Assembly: GCF_021462415.1 (NCBI RefSeq)
Contig: NZ_JAKEDS010000004.1
Location: 124,001-188,000 of the forward strand
Reading direction: 5' to 3'
Source: Rhodohalobacter sp. 614A
Lineage (GTDB): Bacteria; Bacteroidota; Rhodothermia; Balneolales; Balneolaceae
DNA: 64,000 nt
Part shown: positions 25,611 through 41,503 of the stretch, one piece after another
Numbering within the stretch: position 1 is the first letter of the stretch
Layout of the letters: every line of letters begins with the position of its first letter
Translations under genes and position numbers: made by a program
The notes under the pieces: model-generated
The model's input: only the letters and a program-made list of their open reading frames with translations
Told to the model about the DNA's origin: nothing
The model's database searches: none

Positions 25611-28025
25611 TCATTCACTCTTTAAACTGTTTACGGGATTGGCCAAAGCGGCGCTTAACGATTTATACCCAACTGTTAAAGCCGCGATCAAAATGGTTCC
25701 GCCAAATGCTATGGCAAAAATCCCTACGCCGACTTCAATTTTGTACGCAAAATCGGCCAGCCATTGTTGCATTAAATACCAGGAGACCGGAGCAGCTATC
25801 AGAAAAGCAATTCCGGTGAGAAGCATCAACTCTGAGGCAAAAATCCTGAGGATATCGCCAATACTTGCACCCAAAACTTTTCGGACGCCAATCTCTTTTG
25901 TACGGGTAGCCGCCATATAAGAAACCAGGCCAAACAAACCGAGACAGCCAATCAATATGGCAACAATGGTAAATGCATTCATGATATCGGCAGTGCGCTG
26001 TTCCGATTCGTACATTTCAGCAATATTTTCATCCACAAAGCGATATTCGAAGACAAAGTCCGGAAAGAGTTCTACATATGCCTTTTCAAGTGCCATCAAG
26101 GCATCCTTGGTACGGGATGGCTGAGTACGTATGGCTCCTAAAGAAAAGGATCGGCGTGGAGCAAGAATTACAGGTTGAAGCTCTGTATGTAAAGAGGACG
26201 TGTTAAAATCTTTTACGACCCCTACAATAGGTGCCTCCTGCCCCCAAAATCGGTTTGTTTTTCCAATCAAGGCCTGATAATTATCACCATAACCAACCTG
26301 CCTGGCAAAAGCCTCATTTACTAAAAACTGATTGACCGTATCAGAAGGAGTAATATCCCGCCCGGCCAGTATGGTCAGTCCATAGGTGGAGATGAAATCT
26401 TCATCCACAAACTTGATTTCGGCATTATTTTCAAGCCGGGTGGTATCTATCTGAAGAACATAGTTTCCTCCCCAGGTGTTATTACTGGTGGTTCCGGTAT
26501 TCGAGAAGGTTACATTCTGTATACTTGATTCATTCAGAAGTTGATTTTTCAGTGTGTTCAAGGTTTGTTCATTATCATTGGGAATGGAGACTTCCACCAG
26601 GGCTTCTTTGTTAAATCCCAGATCCTTCGTCTGAAAGAATTTGATTTGATTGGCGATGATAATCGTACCGATAATTAATATCTGAGTAATAGCAAACTGA
26701 ATAATAATCAGACCACGGCGAAGAGTTAGCCCGCGACTGTAACTGGCATTTATTTTATTCCGGATAGCTTCCATCGGGTTGAAAGAAGAAAGATGGCGGG
26801 CTGGATACCATCCTGCAGCCAGTGTTATTCCTAAAAACAGAACTGTGATAAACAATATCAGCTCAGGATTTGAAAACAGATTCAGTTTGGGAGTAAAACC
26901 AAGAAGGGGTTCAATGCCACTCAGAACTATTTCGGTGATTGCAATTCCCAGAATAAGAGAAATAAGTGTGGTGAATGCCGTTTCGCCCAAAAAGTGAAAC
27001 GTTAGCTGAAGTCTCGTTCCTCCCAATGTTTTTCGCAAGCCAACTTCTTTCGATCTCTGGGTGGCAATGGCCGTATTCAGATTTATAAAATTGATGCATG
27101 CTGTCAATAGCAGCAAAAACCCGATGATGCCCAGTGCCGTCAGTGTTTCCTTTTCGATCACGCGACCGGAATAATTTTCATAACGGCTGTCGAAGTGTAT
27201 TTCTGACAAAGGCTGAAGAAGATATTCCTTCTCCTCAGCCATCTTCTGATCTGTGTACTTCACAATCATCGGATCGAACTGTACCTGCACCTGCTCGGGA
27301 GTAACGCCGGGTTGTAGTTTCACATAAGTTTGTAGTGAACTGGAACTGCTTCCCCATTCGGTATATTCTTCTTCATACGTGTATCCTGATCTTGAACGGG
27401 AATTTGCAGCTACGAAGACCGTAAATGGAAAGTCGGATTTGGCAGGCAGATCTTCCACCATGCCTGTGATTTCGAGGTCGATAAAATCTTCCGTAAAAAT
27501 GACCAACTCTTTCCCGATAACATCCGTAGTACCGAACATTTTTTGAGCAAAATTTTTGCTGATAACCACCGAGTTGGGGTTTTCCAAAGCCGTATTAGAA
27601 TCACCCGACAACCACGTATACGTAAAAATCTCAAAATATTCTGGCTCTACAAGTGCAAGATTCTCTTCTTTAAATTTAGTATCAGTACCCGCCCCTTCGG
27701 GAAGTGAAACTACAGGAGTGGCAAAATTAGTATTCACCAATGTTACTGATTCAAGACCCGTTATGTCCTCTCGAATGGCTTTTGTTCTGGGATAAGGTCC
27801 ACCTCTATCATAATCAATTGTACCATAATCACTGTTTTCAGTAACCACACGATAGATTCGGTCGGCGTCTTGGTGAAAGGTGTCGAAGTTCAGATCGTAC
27901 TGAATCACCAAAAAAATGACTAAAGCACTTACAATTCCCAGACTGAGGCCGCCAATATTTATCAGAGTGTGACTCTTATTTTTAACCAGGTTGCGTGCAG
28001 CAATTTTCAGATAATTTTTGAACAT
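25611..28025 (-). CDS. ABC transporter permease, duplicated FtsX/MacB-PCD architecture (array copy 11)
   Basis: This 804-aa copy has TM1 VSALVIFLVIQYDLNFDTF. The first core has ISKNFAQKMFGTTDVIGK and LLQPLSEIHFDS. TM2 is LTACINFINLNTAIA, with Leu-Asn-Thr in place of Leu-Ser-Thr. The coupling motifs are QRSKEVGLRKTLGG and TRTKEIGVRKVLGA near 707, and the C-terminus is NPVNSLKSE. A sigma-54-like promoter (28115-28130) and enhancer pair (28181-28219) lie directly upstream. This makes it the likely head of a transcription unit running through copies 10, 9 and further. It is one of the more diverged paralogues. Confidence 0.92.
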   Translation of the reverse strand: MFKNYLKIAARNLVKNKSHTLINIGGLSLGIVSALVIFLVIQYDLNFDTFHQDADRIYRVVTENSDYGTIDYDRGGPYPRTKAIREDITGLESVTLVNTNFATPVVSLPEGAGTDTKFKEENLALVEPEYFEIFTYTWLSGDSNTALENPNSVVISKNFAQKMFGTTDVIGKELVIFTEDFIDLEITGMVEDLPAKSDFPFTVFVAANSRSRSGYTYEEEYTEWGSSSSSLQTYVKLQPGVTPEQVQVQFDPMIVKYTDQKMAEEKEYLLQPLSEIHFDSRYENYSGRVIEKETLTALGIIGFLLLLTACINFINLNTAIATQRSKEVGLRKTLGGTRLQLTFHFLGETAFTTLISLILGIAITEIVLSGIEPLLGFTPKLNLFSNPELILFITVLFLGITLAAGWYPARHLSSFNPMEAIRNKINASYSRGLTLRRGLIIIQFAITQILIIGTIIIANQIKFFQTKDLGFNKEALVEVSIPNDNEQTLNTLKNQLLNESSIQNVTFSNTGTTSNNTWGGNYVLQIDTTRLENNAEIKFVDEDFISTYGLTILAGRDITPSDTVNQFLVNEAFARQVGYGDNYQALIGKTNRFWGQEAPIVGVVKDFNTSSLHTELQPVILAPRRSFSLGAIRTQPSRTKDALMALEKAYVELFPDFVFEYRFVDENIAEMYESEQRTADIMNAFTIVAILIGCLGLFGLVSYMAATRTKEIGVRKVLGASIGDILRIFASELMLLTGIAFLIAAPVSWYLMQQWLADFAYKIEVGVGIFAIAFGGTILIAALTVGYKSLSAALANPVNSLKSE

Positions 28026-28032
28026 GTATTCG

Positions 28033-28107
28033 ATCGTTGAAGGTTGTTCCGGGTTAGTTGAGGGTAGGAAAAATTTAACTATGAACTACAAACAACTAAC
28101 CACATAC
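28033..28107. repeat. family B-like intergenic repeat (diverged)
   Basis: AGGTTGTTCCGGGTTAGTTG faces TACAAACAACTAACCACATA, a TTAGTTG-type variant of the family. It lies between the copy 11 start codon and its sigma-54-like promoter, so it would be in the 5' leader. Confidence 0.55.
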
Positions 28108-28114
28108 AAGACCA

Positions 28115-28130
28115 TTCAACTATCGTACCA
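28115..28130 (-). promoter_or_regulatory. sigma-54-like -24/-12 promoter for permease copy 11
   Basis: The minus strand reads TGGTACGATAGTTGAA, matching the element before copy 2 at 15 of 16 positions. Predicted start is near 28104, about 79 bp before the ATG. Confidence 0.65.
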
Positions 28131-28180
28131 AAGTGAAAAATCTATTCAAATCTCTCTAAATCGATGAGGCAAAAGTTTCC

Positions 28181-28219
28181 TTGTTCGGATTGATACAACA
28201 GGTGTACGATTGCGGACAG
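28181..28219. promoter_or_regulatory. tandem enhancer sites for a sigma-54 activator
   Basis: TTGTTCGGATTGATACAA (28181-28198), a 3-bp spacer, then GTGTACGATTGCGGACAG (28202-28219). The 18+3+18 layout and half-sites (TGTWCG/CGGACA) match the pairs at 5418, 41379 and 46656. It is about 50-90 bp upstream of the -24 element. Confidence 0.65.
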
Positions 28220-28263
28220 TTTTTTCAGTGTTCAATAAGCAGTAACCATTTAACAGAATTTCA

Positions 28264-28307
28264 TGATCACTGATAATTGTTTACTGAACTCTGACAGCCG
28301 ACCGCTC
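28264..28307. repeat. partial family A repeat downstream of permease copy 12
   Basis: Only a right-hand portion is recognisable (TGATAATTGTTTACTGAACT then CTGACAGCCGACCGCT). The opposing arm is too diverged to call. Confidence 0.4.
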
Positions 28308-30659
28308 TTATTCACTCTTTAAACTTTGAACCGGATTTACCAGCGCCGCTTTGATGGATTGCCAGCTTAACGTCAGCCACGCGATGACAATGGCAAGAAT
28401 TCCGGAGAGAGCAAAAATCCACCATTCCATTCCGGATTGATAAGCGAAATCAGACAACCATTTATTCATCAGCCACCAGGAGAGCGGGATAGCAATTCCA
28501 ATAGAAATGATTACCAGCTTGGTGAAATCTTTGGTCAAAAGAAGTACCAGATTTTGTATGGAAGCTCCAAGCACTTTTCTTACACCAATCTCTTTGGCAC
28601 GTTGTTCTGCGGTGAAGGCTGACAAGCCAAACAATCCCAGACATGAAATAATAATTGCAAAAATGGAAAAATACTTTGCCAAATCTCCTATTCGCTGCTC
28701 ACTTCGATAGAGTGCCGCATACTGTTGGTCCATAAACTCGTACGCAAACGGATAGGTCGGATTGAATTCTTTATACACATCTTCAATTTGGGCAAGTGTA
28801 CTTTGAATATTCACTGAACCGATGCGCACGTAAGCCAGGTCACTATAGTCAGCCAGCCGGAAAAAGAGCGGGGCAATTTCACTCCGAAGTGTCTGAAAGT
28901 GAAAATCTTTTACAACTCCGATGATCTCGGTTTCTTCATCCCACAACGTAATCAACTCCCCTACGGGATTTCCCAATCCCATCACAGCCGCGGCAGTCTC
29001 GTTTATAACGATTCGCGAACTATCCGCACCAAACTCCTCAGAATGCGTTCTGCCAGAGAGCAATTCGAAGCCCATCGTTTCAATCAATCCATAATCCACC
29101 CCAACATTCTCAAATAGTATCAGTGTTTCAGGATCTTTTCCCGGCCAATCCAAGCCCGACGTGTTCGAATTCCTGCCCATGAATGAGGCACTGGCCCTGG
29201 ATACATTTATCACTTCGGGAATGGTTTTGAGCCTGTTCTGAAACGAGTTCCATTGATTTTGAACATCACCTTCCATGGTGAACGTAATCAGGTTTTCGTT
29301 TTGATACCCCAGGTTTTTCGTCTGTGTATATTGAATCTGTTTGTAGATAATAACCGTGGAAATAATCAGAACAACGGAAAGTGTAAACTGGAATATCACC
29401 AACCCTTTTCTCGCAAAAACTTCGCCTCCTGATGATTTCAGAGTCCCTTTCAATGTTTTCACCGCTTCAAAGGATGACAAATAAAAAGCCGGGTAACTTC
29501 CTGCAATCAAGCCGGTTACAAGAGCCGTTCCTATAAAAATCATCAACAGATTTGCTTCCAGGTAATTGACTTCTATAGCTTTGTCTGTGAGATCATTAAA
29601 TATTGGCAAACTCATTTCTACAAGAAAGATTGAAATGATCAGGGAAAAGAAAGTGATGATCATCGACTCCCCGATAAACTGGCCGATCAAAGAAGCTTTA
29701 CTGGCTCCAATGGATTTTCGAATGCCAACTTCCCTTGCCCGCTTGGTGGCTTTCGCCGTGCTCAGGTTCATAAAATTGATACAGGCAATCAGAAGAATAA
29801 AAATTGCAACAATAGTAAAGAGACGAACATATTCGATGCGCCCACCGGCTACCACTCCATTCTCAAACTGTCCGTATAAATAACGTTCCTTAAACGGGTA
29901 AACAAACAATTCTACGTTTGAATCATCCTCATCTTTATTCTTAATAAAATTGCTGATCTTGTTATTTAAAGCAGCAATGTTTGTACCGGGATATAACTTT
30001 GCGATGCTTCTCGGACCGTTGTTTCCCCATTGCTGTGCCCATTCATTCCGTTCCAACCAGTCTTCAAACGGCAGAACGTAATCGAACTCTATAGAGGAAC
30101 TCTCCGGCAATTTCTCAAAAACTCCGGTGATGGTATGGAGTTCAGTTCCATCAATGGTGATCGATTCACCCAAAACATTCTCCCGATTGAAATACTTAAC
30201 CGCCAACTCTTTGGAAATAGCGATGGTTTTAGGGCTGTTGATCAATTCATCCCGATTTCCATGAAGTAAATTGATATCCAAAATGTGAAAGAAATCGGGC
30301 CGGGCATACAAACCATTTTCTTTCAGAGATTTTTCATCTTTTGTGAACAGAAATTCCACATTCCAGGTATAAGTGGCTACATACTCAAATTCCGGAACTT
30401 CATCCTTGAGGGCGGGAGCTAAAATTCCGGGCGTTGAAAGTGTGGTCATAATTTCATCCGAATAACTTTGATGTTCCATCACCTGGAAAATCTGATCCGC
30501 ATCAGCATGAAATCGGTCAACATTCATTTCGTCCATCACCCAAAGAAGAATCAGGATACTGCAAGCCATTCCAATGGAAAGGCCAATCACGTTTATAAAA
30601 AAGGAACTCTTGTGTCTTTTAAAAGTTCGGAAGGCAGTTTTAATGTAGTTAGTCAGCAT
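28308..30659 (-). CDS. ABC transporter permease, duplicated FtsX/MacB-PCD architecture (array copy 12)
   Basis: This 783-aa copy, the shortest complete one, belongs to the copies 6/7/9 sub-branch: TM1 ends ILLWVMDEMNVDRFHAD and the core has PFKERYLYGQFENG. The first core block is ISKELAVKYFNRENVLGE. TM2 carries IACINFMNLSTAKA. The coupling motifs are KRAREVGIRKSIGA and QRAKEIGVRKVLGA near 686. The C-terminus is NPVQSLKSE. It is the last copy before the sulfur operon and is transcribed divergently from it. No sigma-54-like element or enhancer pair was found in the 450 bp upstream, so its promoter must be of another type. Confidence 0.92.
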   Translation of the reverse strand: MLTNYIKTAFRTFKRHKSSFFINVIGLSIGMACSILILLWVMDEMNVDRFHADADQIFQVMEHQSYSDEIMTTLSTPGILAPALKDEVPEFEYVATYTWNVEFLFTKDEKSLKENGLYARPDFFHILDINLLHGNRDELINSPKTIAISKELAVKYFNRENVLGESITIDGTELHTITGVFEKLPESSSIEFDYVLPFEDWLERNEWAQQWGNNGPRSIAKLYPGTNIAALNNKISNFIKNKDEDDSNVELFVYPFKERYLYGQFENGVVAGGRIEYVRLFTIVAIFILLIACINFMNLSTAKATKRAREVGIRKSIGASKASLIGQFIGESMIITFFSLIISIFLVEMSLPIFNDLTDKAIEVNYLEANLLMIFIGTALVTGLIAGSYPAFYLSSFEAVKTLKGTLKSSGGEVFARKGLVIFQFTLSVVLIISTVIIYKQIQYTQTKNLGYQNENLITFTMEGDVQNQWNSFQNRLKTIPEVINVSRASASFMGRNSNTSGLDWPGKDPETLILFENVGVDYGLIETMGFELLSGRTHSEEFGADSSRIVINETAAAVMGLGNPVGELITLWDEETEIIGVVKDFHFQTLRSEIAPLFFRLADYSDLAYVRIGSVNIQSTLAQIEDVYKEFNPTYPFAYEFMDQQYAALYRSEQRIGDLAKYFSIFAIIISCLGLFGLSAFTAEQRAKEIGVRKVLGASIQNLVLLLTKDFTKLVIISIGIAIPLSWWLMNKWLSDFAYQSGMEWWIFALSGILAIVIAWLTLSWQSIKAALVNPVQSLKSE

Positions 30660-31109
30660 GTTCTTACCCGGAGAGAATTAAAGTTATTACCGTGAGTAAG
30701 ACGAGGTAAAAGAAATAACGTTACAAGGTTTTTTGTTAGCGGATGTTGGTTCGTTTTAAATCTTCATCATTTTGATTTTTTAGTTACTCACGCACAAATT
30801 TTCCGGATCAACTCTTTTCTGGCTGAATTCATACCCTCACAAAAGAGACTATTTTCACTTCTTTTTAAATTTTTTTCATTCAATTACAGAATTGATAAAA
30901 GCGCTTTTTTTATATTTTAAGTGCATCTCATCCGAAATAATAAAACCTCTTATCGATAAGCTTTTGTTATTTTTTAATCTCGGGGCTTGACATGAAGCGA
31001 TATAGTGTTTAACCTATTCCCACGTTGAAAATGACTTGATGTCTAAACACTTTTTTTAATGAATCAGAAAAAACCAACCACTAACATTCTCGCTCCTGCG
31101 CACCGAAAT
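30660..31109. other. 450-bp divergent intergenic region (permease copy 12 / sulfur operon)
   Basis: No coding frame is convincing here. It contains a 12-bp palindrome (30949-30960), a possible -35/-10 pair on the plus strand (TTGACA at 30987-30992, TAACCT at 31010-31015, 17-bp spacer; weak -10), and an 8-bp inverted repeat AGTGTTTA/TAAACACT (31004-31011 and 31044-31051). This is presumably the control region of the sulfur operon. The first 250 bp show only A+T-rich sequence. Confidence 0.5.
30949..30960. promoter_or_regulatory. 12-bp perfect palindrome, possible operator of the sulfur operon
   Basis: CTTATCGATAAG is a perfect palindrome 27 bp upstream of a TTGACA hexamer and 150 bp upstream of the Cys/Met leader. 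Position suits a regulator of sulfur assimilation, but no regulator gene is nearby. Confidence 0.3.
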
Positions 31110-31169
31110 ATGTGCTGTATGATGTGTTGTATGATGATGCCGAGAAAGGTAGTGGAAAGGATATGCTGA
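31110..31169 (+). CDS. Cys/Met-rich leader peptide of the sulfur-assimilation operon
   Basis: This 19-codon frame encodes MCCMMCCMMMPRKVVERIC and ends TGA. Of its first ten codons four are Cys and six are Met, an extreme composition for chance, and it is followed 24 bp later by a strong terminator hairpin. All the downstream genes serve sulfur reduction. This is the signature of a ribosome-stalling leader: scarcity of charged Cys- or Met-tRNA would stall ribosomes within codons 2-10. No strong ribosome-binding site is seen, which is normal for this group. The peptide itself probably has no other role. Confidence 0.7.
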   Translation: MCCMMCCMMMPRKVVERIC

Positions 31170-31225
31170 TTTAACACAACGATCTTCATACAAAGCCCGC
31201 TACCAACCAGGTGGCGGGCTTTTTT
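31148..31225 (+). terminator. attenuator: antiterminator segment plus intrinsic terminator before the sulfur operon
   Basis: The terminator stem pairs AGCCCGCTACC (31194-31204) with GGTGGCGGGCT (31210-31220) around the loop AACCA, followed by TTTTTGTTTT. The leader codons for Lys-Val-Val-Glu contain GGTAGTGG (31148-31155), which can pair with CCGCTACC (31197-31204), the left arm of the terminator, over 8 bp including one G-U pair. The two structures are mutually exclusive. A ribosome stalled on Cys/Met codons leaves GGTAGTGG free to block the terminator. A ribosome reaching the stop codon covers GGTAGTGG and lets the terminator form. Confidence 0.7.
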
Positions 31226-31311
31226 GTTTTAATCGACCCGCCTGCCTGTCTGTAAAAATGGGCTTTGTGAGAATGACTTAAACCACCAATCAAAAACACA
31301 AAGCTAAAACA

Positions 31312-32154
31312 ATGCCAGATACACTAACTGATAAACAAGTACTCGTTACAACCGATTGGGCAGCCGATCATTTAACCGATGAAGGCGTCCGTTTTGTTGA
31401 GGTCGACGTAAATACCCGATCCTACGATTCTGGTCACATTACCGGAGCCGTTGGTTGGAACTGGAAAAAAGAACTCCAGGATCAACTGCGAAGAACCATC
31501 GCATCCAAAGAAGATTTTGAAAAACTCCTTCAAAAATCCGGAATTGCTGCAGACACCACCGTTGTCCTGTATGGCGACAATAACAACTGGTTTGCCGCAT
31601 GGGCGTATTGGTTGCTGAAATATTACGGATTCAATGATGTTCGCATTCTTGATGGCGGCCGCAAAAAGTGGGAAGCCGAAGGACGCGAACTCACAACCGA
31701 CATTCCCGAATACGAATCCACCGACTACACCGTATCGGAAATTAAAGGGGAATTCCGGGCCTTCAGGGATGACATCAAAGAACGACTCAACGCCGGTGAC
31801 TTCGGTCTCGTTGATGTTCGCTCTCCTGATGAATTCACTGGAAAAATCCTGGCACCTCCCGGATTGGATGAACTCTCACAACGTGCCGGACATATTCCCG
31901 GAGCGTCTAACATTCCATGGTCCAAAGCCGTGAATGAAGACGGTACCTTCAAAAGCAAAGAAGAGCTCACAAAAATCTATGCTGATGAAGGAATCACACC
32001 TGACAAAGAAATTATCGCTTATTGCCGAATCGGCGAGCGTTCTGCTCACTCCTGGTTTGTCCTGAATGAACTGCTCGAATTCCCAACTGTGCGGAATTAC
32101 GACGGTTCCTGGACAGAATGGGGTAACCTGATCGATGCCCCCATCGAGAAGTAA
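31312..32154 (+). CDS. thiosulfate sulfurtransferase (two-domain rhodanese)
   Basis: This 280-aa protein has tandem rhodanese domains. The first, inactive one (about 5-130) contains WKKELQDQL and YGDNNNWFAAWAYWLL. The second (about 150-275) contains the active-site loop CRIGERS with the persulfide Cys at 238 in AYCRIGERSAHSWFVL, a form typical of CysA-like thiosulfate sulfurtransferases rather than 3-mercaptopyruvate transferases. It transfers sulfane sulfur from thiosulfate to a thiol or cyanide acceptor, releasing sulfite, which the next gene product could reduce. First gene after the attenuator; the 118-bp gap to the sulfite reductase holds a hairpin. Start chosen at the only upstream ATG in frame. 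Confidence 0.88.
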   Translation: MPDTLTDKQVLVTTDWAADHLTDEGVRFVEVDVNTRSYDSGHITGAVGWNWKKELQDQLRRTIASKEDFEKLLQKSGIAADTTVVLYGDNNNWFAAWAYWLLKYYGFNDVRILDGGRKKWEAEGRELTTDIPEYESTDYTVSEIKGEFRAFRDDIKERLNAGDFGLVDVRSPDEFTGKILAPPGLDELSQRAGHIPGASNIPWSKAVNEDGTFKSKEELTKIYADEGITPDKEIIAYCRIGERSAHSWFVLNELLEFPTVRNYDGSWTEWGNLIDAPIEK

Positions 32155-32175
32155 CCTCAATTTCAACCACAGAAT

Positions 32176-32212
32176 TTGCGCGTTGCGGGGCTGCTGCCTC
32201 GTAACGCTGCAA
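32176..32212 (+). other. strong RNA hairpin between sulfurtransferase and sulfite reductase genes
   Basis: GCGTTGCGGGG (32180-32190) pairs with CCTCGTAACGC (32197-32207) around CTGCTG, and TTGC/GCAA extends the stem past a bulged T. No T-tract follows, so it is more likely an RNA-processing or stability element within the operon than a terminator. Confidence 0.5.
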
Positions 32213-32272
32213 TTTCTCTCCTTCAACAAAAACAAGCGATAATCAGCAATTCCAAACAGGCTTAACCCACCA

Positions 32273-33946
32273 ATGAGCAGTAAGAAAAAGAGCAAACTTG
32301 AAAACATTAAAGAAGGCAGCAATTACCTTCGTGGACCTTTGGATGTGGAGGTCGGGAATGATGAAGATCATTTCAGTAAAGACGCCATCCAGGTTTTGAA
32401 ATTTCATGGTACCTATCAACAAGATGATCGGGATAAAAGACAAGGCCGCGACCGCCACTACATTTTTATGATTCGCAGCCGTACACCCGGCGGCAAACTC
32501 ACTCCCGCCCAATATCTCGCTGTTGATAACATTTCCAATACGCACGCCGATGGCACCATCCGGGTAACCACGAGGCAGGCTTTCCAGCTTCACGGTATCA
32601 TCAAAAAAGATTTAAAGAAAACAATTAAAGAGATTAATGAATCTCTGATTACAACTCTCGGCGCCTGCGGGGATATTGTACGAAATGTGATGGCCACTCC
32701 TGCTCCCGACATCGACGGCCGCCAAGCCAAAGTCCAGGAATTTTCAGATGAGATTTCTGATATCCTGCTTCCGGCTACCAATGCCTATCATGAAATTTGG
32801 CTGGATGGCGAGAAAGTTTACTCAGGAAAAGAAGAGATAACCAACACCGAGCCACTTTACGACCGTTCTTACCTGCCGCGTAAATTTAAAATTGCTGTTG
32901 CACTTCCCGGAGACAATAGCGTGGATCTCTATACTCAGGATATTGGTTTAGTCGCTTTTTTTGATGAAACGCAGGAAATCGAAGGATTTAATGTTGTTGT
33001 TGGCGGCGGAATGGGTATGCACCACCGGAAGCCGGAAACCTTTCCCCGCCTGGGAGATCACCTGGGATACATCACCAAAGACAAAGTGGTAGATGTAATA
33101 AAAGGAATTATTGGAATTCAGCGGGATTACGGAAACCGTGAAAACCGTAAACAGGCCCGAATGAAATACCTGATTCACGATTGGGGACTCGCCAAATTCA
33201 AAAATGAATTGACGGACCGTCTGGGCTATGAACTCGAAGAATTCCGTGAACTTCCAAAGTTTGAACTGGAATTGTATTTGGGATGGAAAAAGCAATCGGA
33301 CGGAAACTGGTTTTTGGGCATTTCTGTCGAAAATGGACGCATCAAAGATGAAGGGGATTTAAAACTGAAAAGTGCTCTTCGAAAGATAGTAGAAGACTTT
33401 CAGCCTGAAGTTCGGATGACTCCCAATCACAATGTTCTCCTCACCAATATCCCTGAAGAATACAAGCAGCCTATTGAACAGATTTTTCATGAGTATGGTG
33501 TTCAGTTGCCCGATGAAATTCCAAATGCTATCAAGTTTTCCATGGCCTGCCCTGCCCTGCCCACCTGCGGACTTGCCATTGCGGAGTCTGAACGGGTTAT
33601 GCCAGATGTTATTCGCGATTTGAATGGAGTTTTGGAAGAGCTTGAACTCCAGAATGAAAAACTCTCCGTACGAATGACCGGCTGCCCCAATGGATGTGCA
33701 AGGCCATATGTAGCCGACATTGGTTTTGTAGGCCGTTCGCTGGATAAATACACTATTTTTATTGGCGGAGATCCGTCAGGAACACGATTGAATAAAGAGT
33801 ACAAAGACATGGTTCCGCGGGAAGAACTAATTCAGGAAGTTCGCCCGTTACTCGAACATTTCAAAAAAGAGCGATCAGTAAATGAGTCCTTCAGTGATTT
33901 CTGGAATCGTATTGGAATTGAAGACTCACCACAAATACCAGCCTGA
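32273..33946 (+). CDS. cysI: assimilatory sulfite reductase hemoprotein (CysI/Sir type)
   Basis: This 557-aa protein has two nitrite/sulfite-reductase half repeats. Siroheme and phosphate contacts are visible in RVTTRQAFQLHG (about 97-108) and RNVMATPAP (about 137). The [4Fe-4S]-siroheme cysteines are C426 and C432 in ACPALPTCGLAIAESE and C471 and C475 in TGCPNGCARPY. It catalyses six-electron reduction of sulfite to sulfide in the cytoplasm. The pattern fits sulfite more than nitrite reductase, as does the neighbourhood: siroheme and APS reductase genes follow immediately. No flavoprotein (CysJ) gene is in the window, so the electron donor (ferredoxin or a distant flavoprotein) is open; the symbol is by family. 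Confidence 0.85.
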   Translation: MSSKKKSKLENIKEGSNYLRGPLDVEVGNDEDHFSKDAIQVLKFHGTYQQDDRDKRQGRDRHYIFMIRSRTPGGKLTPAQYLAVDNISNTHADGTIRVTTRQAFQLHGIIKKDLKKTIKEINESLITTLGACGDIVRNVMATPAPDIDGRQAKVQEFSDEISDILLPATNAYHEIWLDGEKVYSGKEEITNTEPLYDRSYLPRKFKIAVALPGDNSVDLYTQDIGLVAFFDETQEIEGFNVVVGGGMGMHHRKPETFPRLGDHLGYITKDKVVDVIKGIIGIQRDYGNRENRKQARMKYLIHDWGLAKFKNELTDRLGYELEEFRELPKFELELYLGWKKQSDGNWFLGISVENGRIKDEGDLKLKSALRKIVEDFQPEVRMTPNHNVLLTNIPEEYKQPIEQIFHEYGVQLPDEIPNAIKFSMACPALPTCGLAIAESERVMPDVIRDLNGVLEELELQNEKLSVRMTGCPNGCARPYVADIGFVGRSLDKYTIFIGGDPSGTRLNKEYKDMVPREELIQEVRPLLEHFKKERSVNESFSDFWNRIGIEDSPQIPA

Positions 33947-33952
33947 AAAATT

Positions 33953-34768
33953 ATGAGCAGATTACAGCATTTGAATAAAGGAACGGTGTACCTGGTGGGT
34001 GCCGGCCCCGGCGATCCAGACCTCATAACAGTAAAAGGGTCGAAAGTTCTGGAATTGGCGGATGTCATTGTGTATGACAGGCTTGCCAATCCAGAACTTC
34101 TGGGGCTTACCCGTGAAGATTCCGAACATATTTATGTGGGTAAAACCCCGGATAAGCCATCGGTATCCCAGGAACAGATTAACCAGATATTGGTATCCAA
34201 AGCGCTGAGTGGCAAACATGTTGCACGACTCAAAGGAGGCGACCCGTTTGTTTTCGGACGAGGCGGAGAAGAGTGTGAGGCTTTACGTGCCCACGGTGTT
34301 CCCTACGAAGTGATACCCGGTATCAGCAGTTCAATGGCTGCTCCCGCATTTGCTGGGATTCCAGTAACGCATCGAAAAATTGCCCGATCGTTTACCGTGG
34401 TTACCGGACATACCATCACAGGCTCGGATGATTTTGAAAACTGGTGCCATCTCGTTCACGCCGATACCCTTGTCATTTTGATGGGAATGCGGAATCTCGC
34501 CAATATTTCTGAAACACTCATTCAACTGGGGAAAAACGCAGATACACCGGCTGCTGTGATTCAGGAGGCTACTTTTGAATCCCAACAAGTTGTCGTCGGC
34601 ACGCTTGCTGATATTTCTCAGAAAGCTTCGCACTTATCCTCTCCGGCCACAATCGTTATCGGGGAGCTTGCCTCGCTGAGCCATGATTTGGCATGGTTCA
34701 ACAATGAGAATGAGTTAGAAACCGTGACTGAATCTCAACCCCAACTGCTTGCCAACTATGCAGGATGA
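33953..34768 (+). CDS. cobA: uroporphyrinogen-III C-methyltransferase (SUMT)
   Basis: This 271-aa protein of the tetrapyrrole methylase family has the N-terminal SAM-binding loop VGAGPGDPDLITVKG (about 15-29), ARLKGGDPFVFGRGGEE (about 90-106) and VIPGISSSMAAPAFAGIPVTHR. These are hallmarks of CobA and the CysG C-domain. It methylates uroporphyrinogen III at C2 and C7 to precorrin-2, the first step to siroheme for the sulfite reductase just upstream (6-bp gap). It overlaps the following gene by 20 bp, suggesting translational coupling. Confidence 0.93.
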   Translation: MSRLQHLNKGTVYLVGAGPGDPDLITVKGSKVLELADVIVYDRLANPELLGLTREDSEHIYVGKTPDKPSVSQEQINQILVSKALSGKHVARLKGGDPFVFGRGGEECEALRAHGVPYEVIPGISSSMAAPAFAGIPVTHRKIARSFTVVTGHTITGSDDFENWCHLVHADTLVILMGMRNLANISETLIQLGKNADTPAAVIQEATFESQQVVVGTLADISQKASHLSSPATIVIGELASLSHDLAWFNNENELETVTESQPQLLANYAG

Positions 34769-35534
34769 AATTCGGAAGAATATGCTGGACGTTCTTGAAC
34801 CGGGTAAAACAGAAGTGAAATTTTCAGAAAACGAACTGGATCAGTTAAATCAACAATTCGAAAATGCTGATCCCATTGAAATTCTCTTATGGGGATTTGA
34901 AACATTCGGAGGCGAAATGGTTTTGGGAACAGGTTTTGGATCTTCTGGAGTTCTCCTGATTCATTTCCTCCGGGAACACAACATTGACATCCCGATTTTT
35001 TATCTGGACACAAATCTCTTGTTTGATTCTACCTATGAATTGCGGGACATACTTGAAGCTCGATATAACATCGATATTACGAGAGTCACTCCCGAACTTT
35101 CTCTTCAGGAACAAGCAGAACGATTTGGCGATGAACTCTGGAAAAAAAATCCCAATCAGTGCTGTTTTTACCGGAAAGTGCTGCCTTTGAAAAACTATCT
35201 CTCAGACAAAAAAGCCTGGGTGACAGGACTCCGGCGCAGCCAATCTGAAACCAGGACACAAGCCCGTATCATTGAATGGAATGAAGAAAACGAAGTAATC
35301 AAAATCAATCCACTTGCAAACTGGAGCGGAAAAAAAGTCTGGGATTCTATCCATCATCTGGATTTGCCTTATAATCCGCTTCATGATGAAGGTTATCCAA
35401 GCATCGGCTGTATTCCGTGTACCCAACCGGTGGATGCCTCCAAAGAAAGTGATGACCGAAACGGCCGCTGGAATGGCACGGATAAAACCGAATGTGGAAT
35501 TCATTTTCCAGATCATTATAAGAATGGGAGCTAA
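34749..35534 (+). CDS. cysH: adenylylsulfate/phosphoadenylylsulfate reductase (CysH family, Fe-S type)
   Basis: This 261-aa protein has a PAPS-reductase fold with the P-loop-like GTGFGSSG (60-67) and YLDTN (85-89). Two Cys pairs, C138-C139 (NQCCFYRK) and C221/C224 (GCIPC), form the [4Fe-4S]-binding set characteristic of bacterial APS reductases; enzymes strictly using PAPS lack it. The catalytic Cys is C249 in TECGIHF. It reduces activated sulfate to sulfite using thioredoxin or glutaredoxin-like donors. The start at 34749 lies inside cobA; nearby in-frame ATGs at 34758 and 34782 are also possible. Substrate preference for APS is inferred from the Cys pairs. Confidence 0.9.
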   Translation: MPTMQDEIRKNMLDVLEPGKTEVKFSENELDQLNQQFENADPIEILLWGFETFGGEMVLGTGFGSSGVLLIHFLREHNIDIPIFYLDTNLLFDSTYELRDILEARYNIDITRVTPELSLQEQAERFGDELWKKNPNQCCFYRKVLPLKNYLSDKKAWVTGLRRSQSETRTQARIIEWNEENEVIKINPLANWSGKKVWDSIHHLDLPYNPLHDEGYPSIGCIPCTQPVDASKESDDRNGRWNGTDKTECGIHFPDHYKNGS

Positions 35535-35536
35535 AA

Positions 35537-35554
35537 TCCCCCTTTGAAGGGGGA
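35537..35554. repeat. short GC hairpin in the cysH / precorrin-2 dehydrogenase gap
   Basis: TCCCCCTT-TG-AAGGGGGA is a perfect 8-bp stem three bases after the cysH stop. There is no T-tract. It resembles small dispersed intergenic repeats seen in Bacteroidota genomes. Confidence 0.5.
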
Positions 35555-35595
35555 ATTTCAAATCGATATCAATCAAACCTTTACAAAACTTAAAC

Positions 35596-36276
35596 ATGTC
35601 AAAAGCTTTAGACGTCTACCCCATTTACCTGCGCCGGTTGAGTGAACGAAAAACTGTGATCATCGGGGGAAACTGGGAAGCGGAAGGAAAAGTGAAGGAT
35701 TTTCTGGATCGCGGTGCGTGGCTGACAGTCATCAGTCCCGAATTAAATGAACAGCTTCAGGAGTGGGCAGATGAAGATCGGTTTGAATGGATTCCACGGC
35801 AATATCAATATGGGGATTTTGAAGGTGCTTCGGTTGTAATTGTAGCTGAATATGAAGGTAATATCAACGAAAAAGCTTATCAAGAAGCCGAAGAACGAAA
35901 TATTCTCATCAATGTGATGGATGATCTGCCGCACGCCAATTTTGCGTTTGGGTCGATTGTAAAACAAGGTCCGCTGACAATCTCCATTTCAACGGGAGGT
36001 GCGGCTCCCGCTTTGGCTGTTCGACTCAGACAGCGATTCGAAAAGGAGTTCGGAAAAGAGTATGGCGAATTCCTGGAATTTATGCAGAGCCTCAGAAAGC
36101 CAATGAAAAAACACATCCATGAATTTGATACCCGAAAAAAACTCTGGTACGAACTGATCGATTCTGAAATCCTTACCCTCTTCCGTGAAAGAAAAGTTGA
36201 TGAAGCGCATCAACGAGCAAAAGAAATTTTGGGTAATGAACTCGTGGAAGATGCGCTGGCTGATTTGAGCTATTAG
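35596..36276 (+). CDS. precorrin-2 dehydrogenase / sirohydrochlorin ferrochelatase (Met8/CysG N-terminal type)
   Basis: This 226-aa protein opens with YPIYLRRLSERKTVIIGGNWEAEGKV, a Rossmann NAD-binding region in which the usual GGG is GGN. It continues with FGSIVKQGPLTISISTGGAAPALAVRLRQRFE, the family signature. It oxidises precorrin-2 to sirohydrochlorin and may insert iron, completing siroheme. With cobA this replaces the fused CysG enzyme. It is the last gene of the operon, followed at once by a family A repeat and a convergent permease. Confidence 0.88.
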   Translation: MSKALDVYPIYLRRLSERKTVIIGGNWEAEGKVKDFLDRGAWLTVISPELNEQLQEWADEDRFEWIPRQYQYGDFEGASVVIVAEYEGNINEKAYQEAEERNILINVMDDLPHANFAFGSIVKQGPLTISISTGGAAPALAVRLRQRFEKEFGKEYGEFLEFMQSLRKPMKKHIHEFDTRKKLWYELIDSEILTLFRERKVDEAHQRAKEILGNELVEDALADLSY

Positions 36277-36340: not shown

Positions 36341-38695
36341 TCATTCACTCCTTAAACTTTCGATTGGATTTATTGATGCTGCACGAGCAGCCTGCCAGCT
36401 AACGGTAATCAAAGCAATGACAATAACGGCCAGCCCTGAGATTAGAAACGGCCAGACGGAGAGATCTATCCGGTAAGGAAAATTCTGGAGCCATCGGTGA
36501 GTAAAAAACCACGCCGTTGGCCAGGCAACGAGACTTGAAATTAAAACGAGATTCAAGAACTCTTTTGATATGGGCCGAACGATTCCAAAAACCGAACTAC
36601 CCAGAACTTTACGAATGCCGATCTCTTTGGTTCTGAATTCCGTTTCGATGGCTACGAGGCTATACAACCCGAGAAAAGCGATAAAAAGTGCCAACATTGT
36701 GGAGTACAAAAAAAGCTGTCCCATTATATTTTCCCGACGATAGAGTGTATCGAAAGCATCATCCAAGAACCAATATTCGAACGGAGCAGAAGGAAGTACT
36801 TCTGCAACCGCATTTTGTATTTGCGGGATTGCCGTGCCGGAAGTGATGGCATTATTGTCAATGCGAAGAGCAAGTTGGCCAAGATATCCGGCAGTTCCGC
36901 TGTTTGCGATAATTAACGGTTCGATTTTATCGTGCATGGAAGCAAAATGAAAATCCTTTACAACGCCGAGCACCTCATGAGTTCCACTTCGTTCAATCGT
37001 TTTCCCAAGGGGATCTTCCCATTGCAGCATGTTAACAAGTGCTTCATTGATTACATAAGCATCCCGATCCGCTTCCATGTCAGCACGAAAAATTCTGCCT
37101 TCAACAATGTCAATATCAAACGTTTCCAGAAAATCGCTGTCTGTGTGAATAACATGCACGAGCTTGTGCGAATCAAAACCTTCCGGAAGATAGCCGTTTG
37201 CTTCCACTCCCCGATACGGTATTTGTGAACAGAGTGTAGCACCTTCCACGAATGGAAAATTCAGAACCTCTTCTTTGATGAGTTGATTATTGGCTTTCAT
37301 TTCATCTGTCGGCAGATTCACCACAAGAATATTGTTTTTATTGAAACCAAGAACTTTGTTTTTCATAAATACCTGCTGTTGATAAATCACCAGGGTTCCA
37401 AAAATCAAAAGTACCGAGATAAAAAATTGGACAAACAAGAGGCCATTTCGAAAACCTCCTTTCCCATGACCGGATAGCAATGAATTCTTTAAAATTTTTA
37501 CCGGTGAAAGGGATGCAAGATAGAATGCCGGAATGCTGCCGGCCGCAATGCCAACTAATCCCGCAATGGCGATCAAAACAAGGATAAAATATGTAGAGTA
37601 GAGAGATGAACGCGGTAACTCCTGCCCCAAAATTTCGGAATAGGTGGGAAAAACAAGCTCAATCAGTAAAATGGCAACAGCGGCGGCGATTGCCGTGGTC
37701 AGAACGGATTCAGCCAGGAATTGAAAAACAAGTTGTCTTTTCTCCGCTCCCATCACTTTTCGGACGCCGGTTTCTTTCGCCCTTCGGGTCGATTGTGCAA
37801 GAGAAATGTTAATAAAATTAGAACTGCCCATGATTAAAATCAGCAGGGCGATAGCACCAAACTGAAGGATTCTCCGGAACAAGAACCCCGGATCATAAAA
37901 AAGGTGAATATCAGGAAGAGGTTCGAGTGTTAAGTGATAGGTAATGGCAATGCTTTCATCCAAATACTTTCCTATAAAATCATCCAAAAGATCCTCAAAC
38001 TGTGAGGGATCGACCTGCTCCTGAAGTTGAATAAATGTTGTGTACTGATTTCCGCCATTCCAGCCCATAAACATATTTGGATCCTGGTATAGAGTACTGA
38101 ACGAAATAAGTGCATCAAATTGAATAGAGGAGTTTATGGGCGGGTCTTGGACAACGGCTGTAACTGTATATGTTTCGCCACTTTCCGATTGTAAGGTGTT
38201 TCCCAGAACCTCTTCACGACCCCAGATATCTTTTGCTTTTGAACGGGTAACTACAATTGAATAAGGTGAAGCCAGAGCTGACTTTGGGTCTCCCGAAAGA
38301 ATATCAAATGAAAAGATGTCGAAAAATGTGGAATCGACATGATGAATTTCGTCAATTCGATAGGGATTATTTTGTGAATAGAAATATTGGCTGACGGGCT
38401 GACGCACCCGGGTAAAATTTTCGACCTGTCGAAAATCATTTTTCAGGGCCGGTCCAACGGGAGCCAGAAACGTGTTGAATTTTCCGATACGCCCTTCCCA
38501 GTTTTCCTCCACAGCAACCCGGTAAATGTGATCTCTGTTTTCATGAAAACGGTCGTAACTCCACTCAAACTTCAGATAAATAAAAATCAAGACCACAGCC
38601 GCAATCCCGATGGATAGCCCAAGTATATTTATAAATGAATACTGCCTGTTTTTCCACAGATTTCGTAATGCAATTTTGATGTAGTTTTTAAGCAT
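36341..38695 (-). CDS. ABC transporter permease, duplicated FtsX/MacB-PCD architecture (array copy 13)
   Basis: This 784-aa copy lies on the regulator side of the sulfur operon. TM1 is AAVVLIFIYLKFEWSYDRF. The first core has VTRSKAKDIWGREEVLGN, where the usual KYFG is DIWG, and LEPLPDIHLFYDPGF. TM2 is MGSSNFINISLAQS, lacking the Cys and Met of the common ACINFMNLS block. The coupling motifs are RRAKETGVRKVMGA and FRTKEIGIRKVLGS near 687, and the C-terminus is NPIESLRSE. It is more diverged than most but complete. Probably transcribed together with copy 14 upstream, from the sigma-54-like promoter at 41312. Confidence 0.92.
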   Translation of the reverse strand: MLKNYIKIALRNLWKNRQYSFINILGLSIGIAAVVLIFIYLKFEWSYDRFHENRDHIYRVAVEENWEGRIGKFNTFLAPVGPALKNDFRQVENFTRVRQPVSQYFYSQNNPYRIDEIHHVDSTFFDIFSFDILSGDPKSALASPYSIVVTRSKAKDIWGREEVLGNTLQSESGETYTVTAVVQDPPINSSIQFDALISFSTLYQDPNMFMGWNGGNQYTTFIQLQEQVDPSQFEDLLDDFIGKYLDESIAITYHLTLEPLPDIHLFYDPGFLFRRILQFGAIALLILIMGSSNFINISLAQSTRRAKETGVRKVMGAEKRQLVFQFLAESVLTTAIAAAVAILLIELVFPTYSEILGQELPRSSLYSTYFILVLIAIAGLVGIAAGSIPAFYLASLSPVKILKNSLLSGHGKGGFRNGLLFVQFFISVLLIFGTLVIYQQQVFMKNKVLGFNKNNILVVNLPTDEMKANNQLIKEEVLNFPFVEGATLCSQIPYRGVEANGYLPEGFDSHKLVHVIHTDSDFLETFDIDIVEGRIFRADMEADRDAYVINEALVNMLQWEDPLGKTIERSGTHEVLGVVKDFHFASMHDKIEPLIIANSGTAGYLGQLALRIDNNAITSGTAIPQIQNAVAEVLPSAPFEYWFLDDAFDTLYRRENIMGQLFLYSTMLALFIAFLGLYSLVAIETEFRTKEIGIRKVLGSSVFGIVRPISKEFLNLVLISSLVAWPTAWFFTHRWLQNFPYRIDLSVWPFLISGLAVIVIALITVSWQAARAASINPIESLRSE

Positions 38696-38702
38696 AATCT
38701 TA

Positions 38703-38772
38703 AGCTTTTAGCCATCAGACTTCAGCTTTCAGCTTCTCTTTTCTGAAGTCTGATAGCTGAGTGCTGACAGCT
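38703..38772. repeat. family A intergenic inverted repeat
   Basis: AGCTTTTAGCCATCAGACTT and AAGTCTGATAGCTGAGTGCT are the opposed arms; the pyrimidine-rich centre (CTTCTCTTTTCTG) resembles that of the 36281 copy. Confidence 0.7.
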
Positions 38773-38778
38773 TGTTTT

Positions 38779-41175: not shown

Positions 41176-41311
41176 ATTATTATACTCCCATTCAATTATA
41201 AAAGCCTCTTTTATCTTTAATAACTAGTATCTCAAAAAACTATTTTAAAGGAACTTTCTAAGGACTTTGCTTCTTCCCTATTATTCAATAAATACTTCCT
41301 CTTTTTTAGAG

Positions 41312-41327
41312 ATCAATAATCATACCA
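41312..41327 (-). promoter_or_regulatory. sigma-54-like -24/-12 promoter for permease copy 14
   Basis: Minus strand TGGTATGATTATTGAT: GG and GA are 10 bp apart. Predicted start is near 41301, about 126 bp before the ATG. Confidence 0.6.
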
Positions 41328-41378
41328 AACTGAAGAATGCAGCTTCTTTTTAAAGATAGAAGGTTTGTATGATTTAAG

Positions 41379-41417
41379 CTGTCCGATACCAGACAGGGAT
41401 TGTTCGAAAATGAACGG
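41379..41417. promoter_or_regulatory. tandem enhancer sites for a sigma-54 activator
   Basis: CTGTCCGATACCAGACAG (41379-41396), 3-bp spacer GGA, then TTGTTCGAAAATGAACGG (41400-41417). Both are imperfect palindromes (CTGTC/GACAG; GTTCG/GAAC). Spacing is identical to the other three pairs. Confidence 0.65.
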
Positions 41418-41422
41418 TTTTA

Positions 41423-41497
41423 TTTGTTGTAAGTTGTTAGTAGTCCGTTGTTTGTGCCGGGTCTTAACAACCAACAACAGACCACGAACCACAAACT
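41423..41497. repeat. family B intergenic inverted repeat
   Basis: GTTGTAAGTTGTTAGTAG faces CAACCAACAACAGACCACG. It separates the enhancer pair from the end of copy 15. Confidence 0.65.
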
Positions 41498-41503
41498 AAA
41501 AAG

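Follow-up and report, generated by a model that had tools for sequence, protein, structure and literature searches.

A Cys/Met leader with competing RNA helices ahead of the sulfite-reductase operon of Rhodohalobacter and other Balneolaceae

Attenuators of the trp, his and thr type combine a short reading frame carrying a run of codons for the end product, competing RNA helices and an intrinsic terminator followed by a U tract; in the trp leader, the regulatory codons lie inside strand 1. Polycysteine attenuators of mycobacteria were reportedly described by Canestrari in 2020. The leader reported here for Balneolaceae has frame, helices and terminator in common with the Proteobacteria trp, his and thr leaders (Trp_leader, RF00513; Thr_leader, RF00506) but differs from them in its Cys and Met codons, in having these codons in the loop that joins strand 1 to strand 2, in its Bacteroidota-side lineage and in the absence of an Rfam match at gathering score. 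In the cys operons of Mycobacterium and other actinobacteria, the Cys run of the frame lies close to the stop codon and no terminator was found to be conserved, as far as the accessible part of that report goes (Seliverstov 2005, PMC1262725). Both leaders have a short Cys-rich frame upstream of cys genes; in our locus, in contrast, the run lies mid-frame, is mixed with Met and is followed by a terminator and an antiterminator. Nine codons separate its end from the stop, the last of them a single Cys, so that the locus does not fit the actinobacterial type, with its run at the stop and no terminator. For Flavobacterium psychrophilum, also one of the Bacteroidetes, leader-peptide attenuation has been suggested for amino-acid operons (PMC9723704); the same general mechanism is inferred there, while Cys/Met leaders are not named in the portion of the paper available to us. 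An earlier note on this DNA had stated that Cys-rich leaders are known in actinobacteria and that the Cys/Met mix looks less described in this group. This agrees with the literature searched, parts of which were available only in excerpt: it contained Cys leaders, and neither a leader with a Cys/Met mix nor a leader in tandem with a SAM-I riboswitch, an absence that is weak evidence since most subscription journals were outside the scope. No literature was found on Rhodohalobacter with sulfate and cysteine.

Leader, terminator and sulfur operon in the window

The window (the whole 64,000-nt stretch of Rhodohalobacter sp. 614A DNA that was analyzed) contains the following leader features.

30987-31015, plus strand: probable promoter, inferred from TTGACA (30987-30992), a 17-nt spacer and TAACCT (31010-31015)
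31059-31169, plus strand: leader peptide frame of 36 codons, MNQKKPTTNILAPAHRNMCCMMCCMMMPRKVVERIC; start and Cys/Met run conserved in relatives
31074-31092 (about), plus strand: strand 1, pairing with the strand 2 region (about 31141-31161) according to the MFE fold and permutation
31110-31139, plus strand: Cys/Met codon run MCCMMCCMMM, the putative regulatory codons, read from the sequence
31148-31155, plus strand: strand 2, GGTAGTGG, 5' strand of the antiterminator, inside the leader frame
31192-31222, plus strand: terminator (strands 3 and 4), AAAGCCCGCTACC/GGTGGCGGGCTTT, 13 bp, T-rich sequence after it
31197-31204, plus strand: strand 3 core, CCGCTACC, within the left arm of the terminator

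The leader had been described as a 19-codon frame starting at 31110. The ATG at this position does open M-C-C-M-M-C-C-M-M-M-P-R-K-V-V-E-R-I-C, ending at the stop codon 31167-31169, but it did not hold up as the start codon. The same frame is open from the ATG at 31059, which places the Cys/Met run in the middle of a 36-codon leader, and because relatives retain an upstream start (mostly ATGAAT...) ahead of the run, 31110 was rejected and 31059 is the likelier start. TTGAC was counted by eye upstream of 12 of 16 related leaders; the window's promoter at 30987-31015 is absent from the output of a consensus promoter scan. The hairpin with its T-rich tail is present as noted earlier, although its limits are 31192-31222 (13 pairs) and not 31194-31220. 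The complementarity claimed between GGTAGTGG (31148-31155) and CCGCTACC (31197-31204) is found, with one G-U pair. The mutual exclusivity of antiterminator and terminator was also borne out, but the earlier description lacked the upstream strand 1, which covaries strongly with strand 2 and could hold it away from strand 3. The minimum free energy of 31018-31230 is -59.9 kcal/mol, compared with a shuffle mean of -42.9 (sd 4.1, z -4.1), and none of 200 shuffles was as stable as the native sequence.

The genes behind the leader are as follows.

31312-32154, plus strand: sulfurtransferase with two rhodanese domains, 3-mercaptopyruvate sulfurtransferase-like (PF00581; NF008557 at 129.1 bits, below the cut-off of 250)
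32273-33946, plus strand: assimilatory sulfite reductase hemoprotein (NF010029 at 787.9 bits, cut-off 457)
33953-34768, plus strand: cobA, uroporphyrinogen-III C-methyltransferase for siroheme (TIGR01469 above cut-off)
34749-35534, plus strand: cysH, phosphoadenylyl-sulfate (APS/PAPS) reductase (NF002537 above cut-off; start codon uncertain)
35596-36276, plus strand: siroheme synthase of the cysG N-terminal type (TIGR01470 above cut-off)

No terminator was found in a plus-strand scan from 31223 to 36276. The operon is one for sulfate reduction with siroheme supply, and this pathway leads to Cys and Met. The closest named sulfite reductase, with 86% identity, is that of Rhodohalobacter sulfatireducens. 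The operon is flanked on the minus strand (25611-30659 and 36341-43879) by five long, similar-looking genes of 783-804 aa that have the look of ABC-transporter permeases.

Conservation and covariation of the leader

Sulfite reductase was present in 20/92 Balneolaceae genomes, one of which (G115) was excluded because the gene starts at a contig edge. A Cys/Met leader lies upstream in all 19 sulfite-reductase loci having upstream sequence, and in these an intrinsic terminator is readable between the leader and the first gene. Examples are MNQQNGSTNFSATEHKNMCCMMCCRMPRKVVEKLC in R. sulfatireducens, MKTQNYIQTTTAATEQAMNCCCMCMCMMCNTPTVVDVMC in Gracilimonas mengyeensis and MNFHNQIHNFLVMPVAMCCMCMCCCMHMPGGSGTDMRK in Fodinibius salsisoli; a more distant leader, with its own terminator, is found in Roseithermus sacchariphilus. 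A search upstream of sulfur operons for MCCMMCC-like frames followed by a terminator, as proposed in the earlier note, was thus positive in 19/19 Balneolaceae loci, and also at sulfur loci of the distant genus g44 (see below). Loss of the frame or of the pairing in relatives, named there as grounds for refutation, was not seen in the sequences: the frame is kept in 19/19 loci, and of the 16 aligned loci, 14 have a complete 2:3 pairing if G-U is counted, while two have a single mismatch.

Covariation was tested by comparing the duplex energies of matched strands with those of strands permuted between loci (20000 permutations, 19 loci). Matched strands were more stable for 1:2 (-25.5 versus -19.2 kcal/mol, reached by 0/20000), 2:3 (-17.0 versus -15.6 kcal/mol, 2/20000) and the terminator arms 3:4 (-25.0 versus -22.7 kcal/mol, 0/20000), and a control region set against strand 2 in the same 19 loci was not significant (-14.7 versus -14.8 kcal/mol, 11146/20000). 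With 13 representatives, the counts were 0, 15, 0 and, for the control, 12042 of 20000; relatedness among loci is not fully removed in these tests. On the 16-sequence alignment, 98.4% of cells are paired in the 8-bp 2:3 core, whose single double change was reached by 30/500 shuffles, and 99.0% in the terminator, where three pairs have double changes and the six double-changed cells were reached by 0/500 shuffles. In locus L118, strands 2, 3 and 4 are altered together (GATAGTGG/CCACTATC/GATAG), giving a terminator CTATC/GATAG. Taken locus by locus, the 2:3 energy had p<=0.05 in 15/20 leaders of the sulfite-reductase type; two of the five others had no terminator found by the script (one is readable), and three failed, including Roseithermus.

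Downstream of the terminator, two further features were noted.

31241-31252, plus strand: element D (CCTGCCTGTCTG), with complementarity to the apex of the terminator and, as an alternative partner, to the initial codons of the sulfurtransferase gene
31262-31304, plus strand: stem GCTTTGTG (31262-31269)/CACAAAGC (31297-31304), ending 7 nt before the ATG of the first gene

Element D reads CTGNNTCAG in many loci and CCTGCCTGTCTG in the window. Its boundaries were first chosen by eye, and the tests were repeated with mechanical boundaries. With the latter, permutation over 18 loci gave 0/20000 both for the apex and for the first 14 nt of the gene (0 and 18 of 20000 with 13 representatives), with no signal for the next 16 nt of the gene (17631/20000 in 18 loci, 14139 in 13 representatives). 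Examples are CCAACACAG with CTGTGTTG in L118, CTTCAG with CTGAAG in L034, CGTCAG with CTGACG in L006 and CATCAGG with CCTGATG in L114. With boundaries set by eye, the window's own D:apex pairing is the weakest of 16 and its D:start pairing is among the weakest. In a folding model of 18 loci, blocking strand 3 raised the mean openness of the start region from 0.34 to 0.48, with an increase of more than 0.1 in 13 loci and a decrease of more than 0.1 in none. While the terminator is open, D would be paired to its apex, and in all other cases to the opening codons of the sulfurtransferase gene; it may be, on comparative evidence alone, a lock on translation that is tied to the terminator. If this start-codon lock is real, one hairpin decision would set both transcription and translation. 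Both strands of the downstream stem can be read by eye, with minor changes, in 15/19 loci, and it is the longest stem in 11; it is lost in L119 and degraded in L114, L116 and L008. As a genome-wide operator, the stem was considered and rejected: CTTTGTGA..CACAAAG occurs only at the locus and in one palindrome elsewhere, with one control match, and being almost confined to the locus it is unlikely to be a regulon operator.

The sulfite-reductase operon is patchy in Balneolaceae, and outside Rhodothermia-side records the best named matches of the reductase are cyanobacterial, at about 50% identity; together, these observations may reflect gain or loss by transfer. In one genome (G312, L161:5118-5426), the sulfurtransferase gene expected between the leader and the sulfite reductase appears to be deleted apart from what, by eye, resembles a C-terminal remnant; D is nevertheless kept, as is its complementarity to the apex of the terminator. 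In two genomes of genus g39, a frame ending ..RMCMCC directly follows the sulfite reductase (L023:3158-3241, L027:3161-3244).

Related leaders at metY and in a distant genus

The pattern ATGTGYTGYATGATG was searched in 296 genomes of the phylum, with the reversed pattern as a control, and was found at 45 places in 37 genomes, compared with 1 for the control. Of these places, 30 were read: 12 have a short frame and then a terminator (9 outside Balneolaceae, and 3 that are the Balneolaceae sulfite-reductase leaders), 15 have no terminator, and 3 were left out of the terminator test because the frame ran on for at least 40 codons. In the window's own genome, two 12-base Cys/Met patterns listed 10 places, two of them overlapping, and among these 10 only the metY leader is leader-like.

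The metY homologue of this genome (C1:1928643-1929929) is 53% identical to the query, an O-acetylhomoserine sulfhydrylase named by TIGR01326 above cut-off. It is preceded, in this order, by MKNLTNNIDYCICIMCMCCCST, TGCAGAGGG, a hairpin with a T tract and a SAM-I riboswitch (RF00162; 76.5 bits, gathering cut-off 44.4), and CAGAGGG of TGCAGAGGG matches CCCTCTG of the hairpin. Of 36 Balneolaceae genomes with a metY match, 27 were examined for an upstream ATG frame with at least 3 Cys in 9 residues. Such a leader was found in 25/27 loci, in ten of them only in longer stretches (about 1-3 kb); the other two have two Cys (G262) and a GTG-start frame, ICMMCMYC, seen by eye (G207). SAM-I was present in 27/27 examined loci and the leader lay 5' of it in 26/26 loci with a located leader (the 25 and G262), with 73-117 nt between leader stop and aptamer. 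Sulfite reductase is absent from 18 of these 27 genomes. In the permutation test on metY leaders of the order (26 of 28 loci, two having given no terminator and one near-duplicate having been left out beforehand), the 1:2 signal was strong (0/20000) and the 2:3 signal weak (508/20000); locus by locus, 2:3 had p<=0.05 in 15/29. In a set of 80 stretches, each the 800 nt upstream of metY, a frame with at least 3 Cys in 9 was found in sense in 28, of which 15 are Balneolaceae, and in antisense in 6. Outside the family, 13 sense and 6 antisense frames in 53 stretches indicate that some of the sense matches are due to chance.

Placing a leader in line with a SAM riboswitch would naturally create a gate with two inputs. 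For Bacillus clausii metE, the accessible part of PMC2258182 reports SAM-I and AdoCbl riboswitches in tandem; there, too, two sensors stand in series in one 5' untranslated region of a methionine gene, but those of Balneolaceae metY would be a leader-peptide attenuator and a SAM-I riboswitch. According to the portion of PMC7270179 at hand, uncharged initiator tRNA is sensed in addition to SAM by the SAM-I riboswitch of the met operon in Xanthomonas, and thus SAM and tRNA inputs are likewise joined on one methionine transcript. One RNA does both in that case, whereas the tRNA input in Balneolaceae would come from translation of a separate leader.

Short frames upstream of metY in other families end in or contain polycysteine (L206 CCCCCC, L208 CCCCM, L209 CCCTPCCCCC, L211 CCMCICCPCC) and resemble the actinobacterial type with a Cys run near the stop. 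In another genome (G021), SAM-I (3888-3995, plus strand) and SAM-II (552-658, minus strand) lie within one 4.3-kb locus (L162); in a 2007 survey, as far as it was available, no species carried both (PMC2258182).

Leaders of this kind are also found in a distant genus. Genus g44 of family f26, which we take to be Flavobacterium, has a Cys/Met leader (here at least 2 Cys in 9 residues) and a terminator at 12/14 metY loci, six of them with two in tandem; 2/14 have no leader. In the other f26 genera, reading of 8 metY loci gave no leader, two having a frame with 2 Cys. Two g44 genomes contain a cluster of cysE-like, cysK, cobA and sulfite-reductase genes (names taken from one of the two) with a leader of its own, MMLFVCNMCCMMWKNPQS.., in which CGCAGAG is the segment pairing with the terminator. 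The g44 RNA strands differ from those of Balneolaceae, and the antiterminator of the second metY leaders reached p<=0.05 in 2/12. In three g44 genomes (L158 in G174, L159 in G025 and L130 in G222), an MCCMM leader with a terminator precedes a glutamate-dehydrogenase-like gene instead of a sulfur gene; for L159, the best NCBIfam matches are glutamate dehydrogenases below cut-off, and the MCCMM leaders of L158 and L159 are followed by another short frame that contains Cys. The g44 examples may be among the leaders of PMC9723704, of which only a part was accessible.

Proposed mechanism and rival explanations

The layout originally proposed for this locus, a leader peptide with an antiterminator exclusive of the terminator ahead of a sulfur operon, is supported by the comparative data: frame, run, terminator and mutually exclusive helices are there, they are conserved and covary, and sulfur genes lie behind them. 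In the absence of expression data, we consider it highly probable that the sulfite-reductase operon is under the control of a translation-coupled transcription attenuator of the trp/his type that responds to charged Cys-tRNA and perhaps also to Met-tRNA. The steps of the ribosome, translation of the frame, the tRNAs sensed, the direction of the response and the response to Cys/Met limitation are inferred. During transcription of the leader, strand 1 would fold on strand 2, and a ribosome starting at 31059 would open this helix. A shortage of Cys-tRNA, and possibly of Met-tRNA, would stall the ribosome on the Cys/Met codons at 31110-31139; strand 2 (31148-31155), left uncovered, could then pair with strand 3 (31197-31204), so that no terminator would form and the operon would be transcribed. 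With plentiful charged tRNA, the ribosome would read to the stop at 31167 and mask strand 2 wholly or partly, so that 3:4 terminates; after its release, 1:2 could re-form. Without translation, 1:2 would form and termination would be the default.

The geometry leaves a gap in this scheme. In the 15 loci passing the per-locus test, the strand 2 duplex begins 7-21 nt past the last Cys codon of the scored run. Measured back from the last nucleotide of the stop codon, it spans 22 to 13 nt in the window and 28 to 18 nt in several relatives; given the size of the ribosome footprint, strand 2 would be well covered by a ribosome that has reached the stop in the former, but only in part in the latter. 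The regulatory codons sit 3' of strand 1, in the loop between strands 1 and 2, and a stalled ribosome therefore need not by itself prevent 1:2. What stops 1:2 from re-forming around it is not shown by the present data.

Other explanations of the locus were weighed against such an attenuator. A chance frame ahead of a constitutive 5' UTR terminator draws support from the Cys count: the frame is the single ATG frame of 6-60 aa with at least 4 Cys in 9 residues on both strands of the whole 64 kb, and first-order Markov sequences, used as the chance control rather than exact shuffles, contain a mean of 0.97 such frames per 64 kb, so that the Cys count alone is not rare (the pattern CC..CC occurred twice in 40 x 64 kb of Markov sequence). 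The evidential weight, as judged from sequence, rests on conservation rather than on this count, and with a frame in the same place in all 19 relatives and covariation of 1:2, 2:3 and 3:4, chance can practically be discounted. It is very unlikely that the frame encodes a working Cys-rich small protein, such as a metal or redox peptide, followed by an ordinary terminator. Cys-rich peptides can bind metals and the Cys run is conserved, but M1 and two Cys are the only three invariant columns in 16 aligned peptides, and the hairpin is placed between leader and operon. Furthermore, the codons that cross the nearly invariant strand 2 are GTA GTG (V V) in four of 16 leaders (window, L112, L003, L034), the other 12 using a G-S-G type frame; since the codon frame over GGTAGTGG differs between relatives, it is the RNA and not the peptide that is conserved, and the RNA helices covary. 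Control by a metabolite riboswitch or a T-box, with the frame incidental, retains no more than a very slim chance; a SAM-I riboswitch does precede metY in the same genome, yet no Rfam family, SAM-I (RF00162) included, reaches its gathering score in the window, and the five E-value matches within 30950-31400 (trpB, Trp_leader, Thr_leader twice and STnc180) are all far below gathering.

An explanation closer to ours is that the same attenuator senses Cys-tRNA only, with the Met codons being neutral spacers or by-products of TGT/ATG repeat growth. Met codons are favored in Balneolales runs, making up 56/78 non-Cys residues inside runs of the sulfite-reductase type compared with 56/529 outside (20 leaders, Roseithermus included) and 55/103 compared with 38/467 in metY leaders of the order (29 leaders). 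This excess argues against a Cys-only sensor, as do the use of both TGC and TGT in the window's run, unlike a simple repeat, and the recurrence of Cys/Met runs in g44. However, the second metY leaders of g44 (n=11) have no Met enrichment in the run (13/54 versus 41/159), and polycysteine runs with few Met precede metY elsewhere (L206 CCCCCC, L208 CCCC, L209 CCCTPCCCCC). Limitation for Met would hit initiation too and thereby favor termination, which counts against Met as the signal. That Met is sensed rests on composition alone, and a Met-tRNA signal is not shown; the Cys-only sensor is a serious contender, even if we lean slightly against it. More tentative still, and in our judgment rather doubtful as a whole, is the wider proposal that the sulfur regulon of Balneolaceae and, with other sequences, of a distant Bacteroidota genus is run by leaders reading Cys-tRNA and Met-tRNA, that the metY leader and SAM-I form an AND gate, and that D locks leaky read-through transcripts of the sulfite-reductase operon.

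Returning to the translation-coupled attenuator as such, the comparisons made here point to a conserved putative class for sulfur genes that is larger than first noted, with the Cys/Met mix and the tandem with SAM-I as its apparently new elements. The mixed runs raise the question of whether a single leader can respond to two amino acids from the same pathway when one of them also initiates every protein. In practical terms, the finding points to many short leader frames and would tie metY and sulfite-reductase operons to a common signal. No translation-based sensing of sulfur amino acids has been assigned to Bacteroidota-side sulfate assimilation in the literature searched; if our reading is true, such sensing would now be defined for these bacteria. 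Most likely, the sulfur-assimilation genes are switched on only when sulfur amino acids are scarce, by a device common to close relatives.
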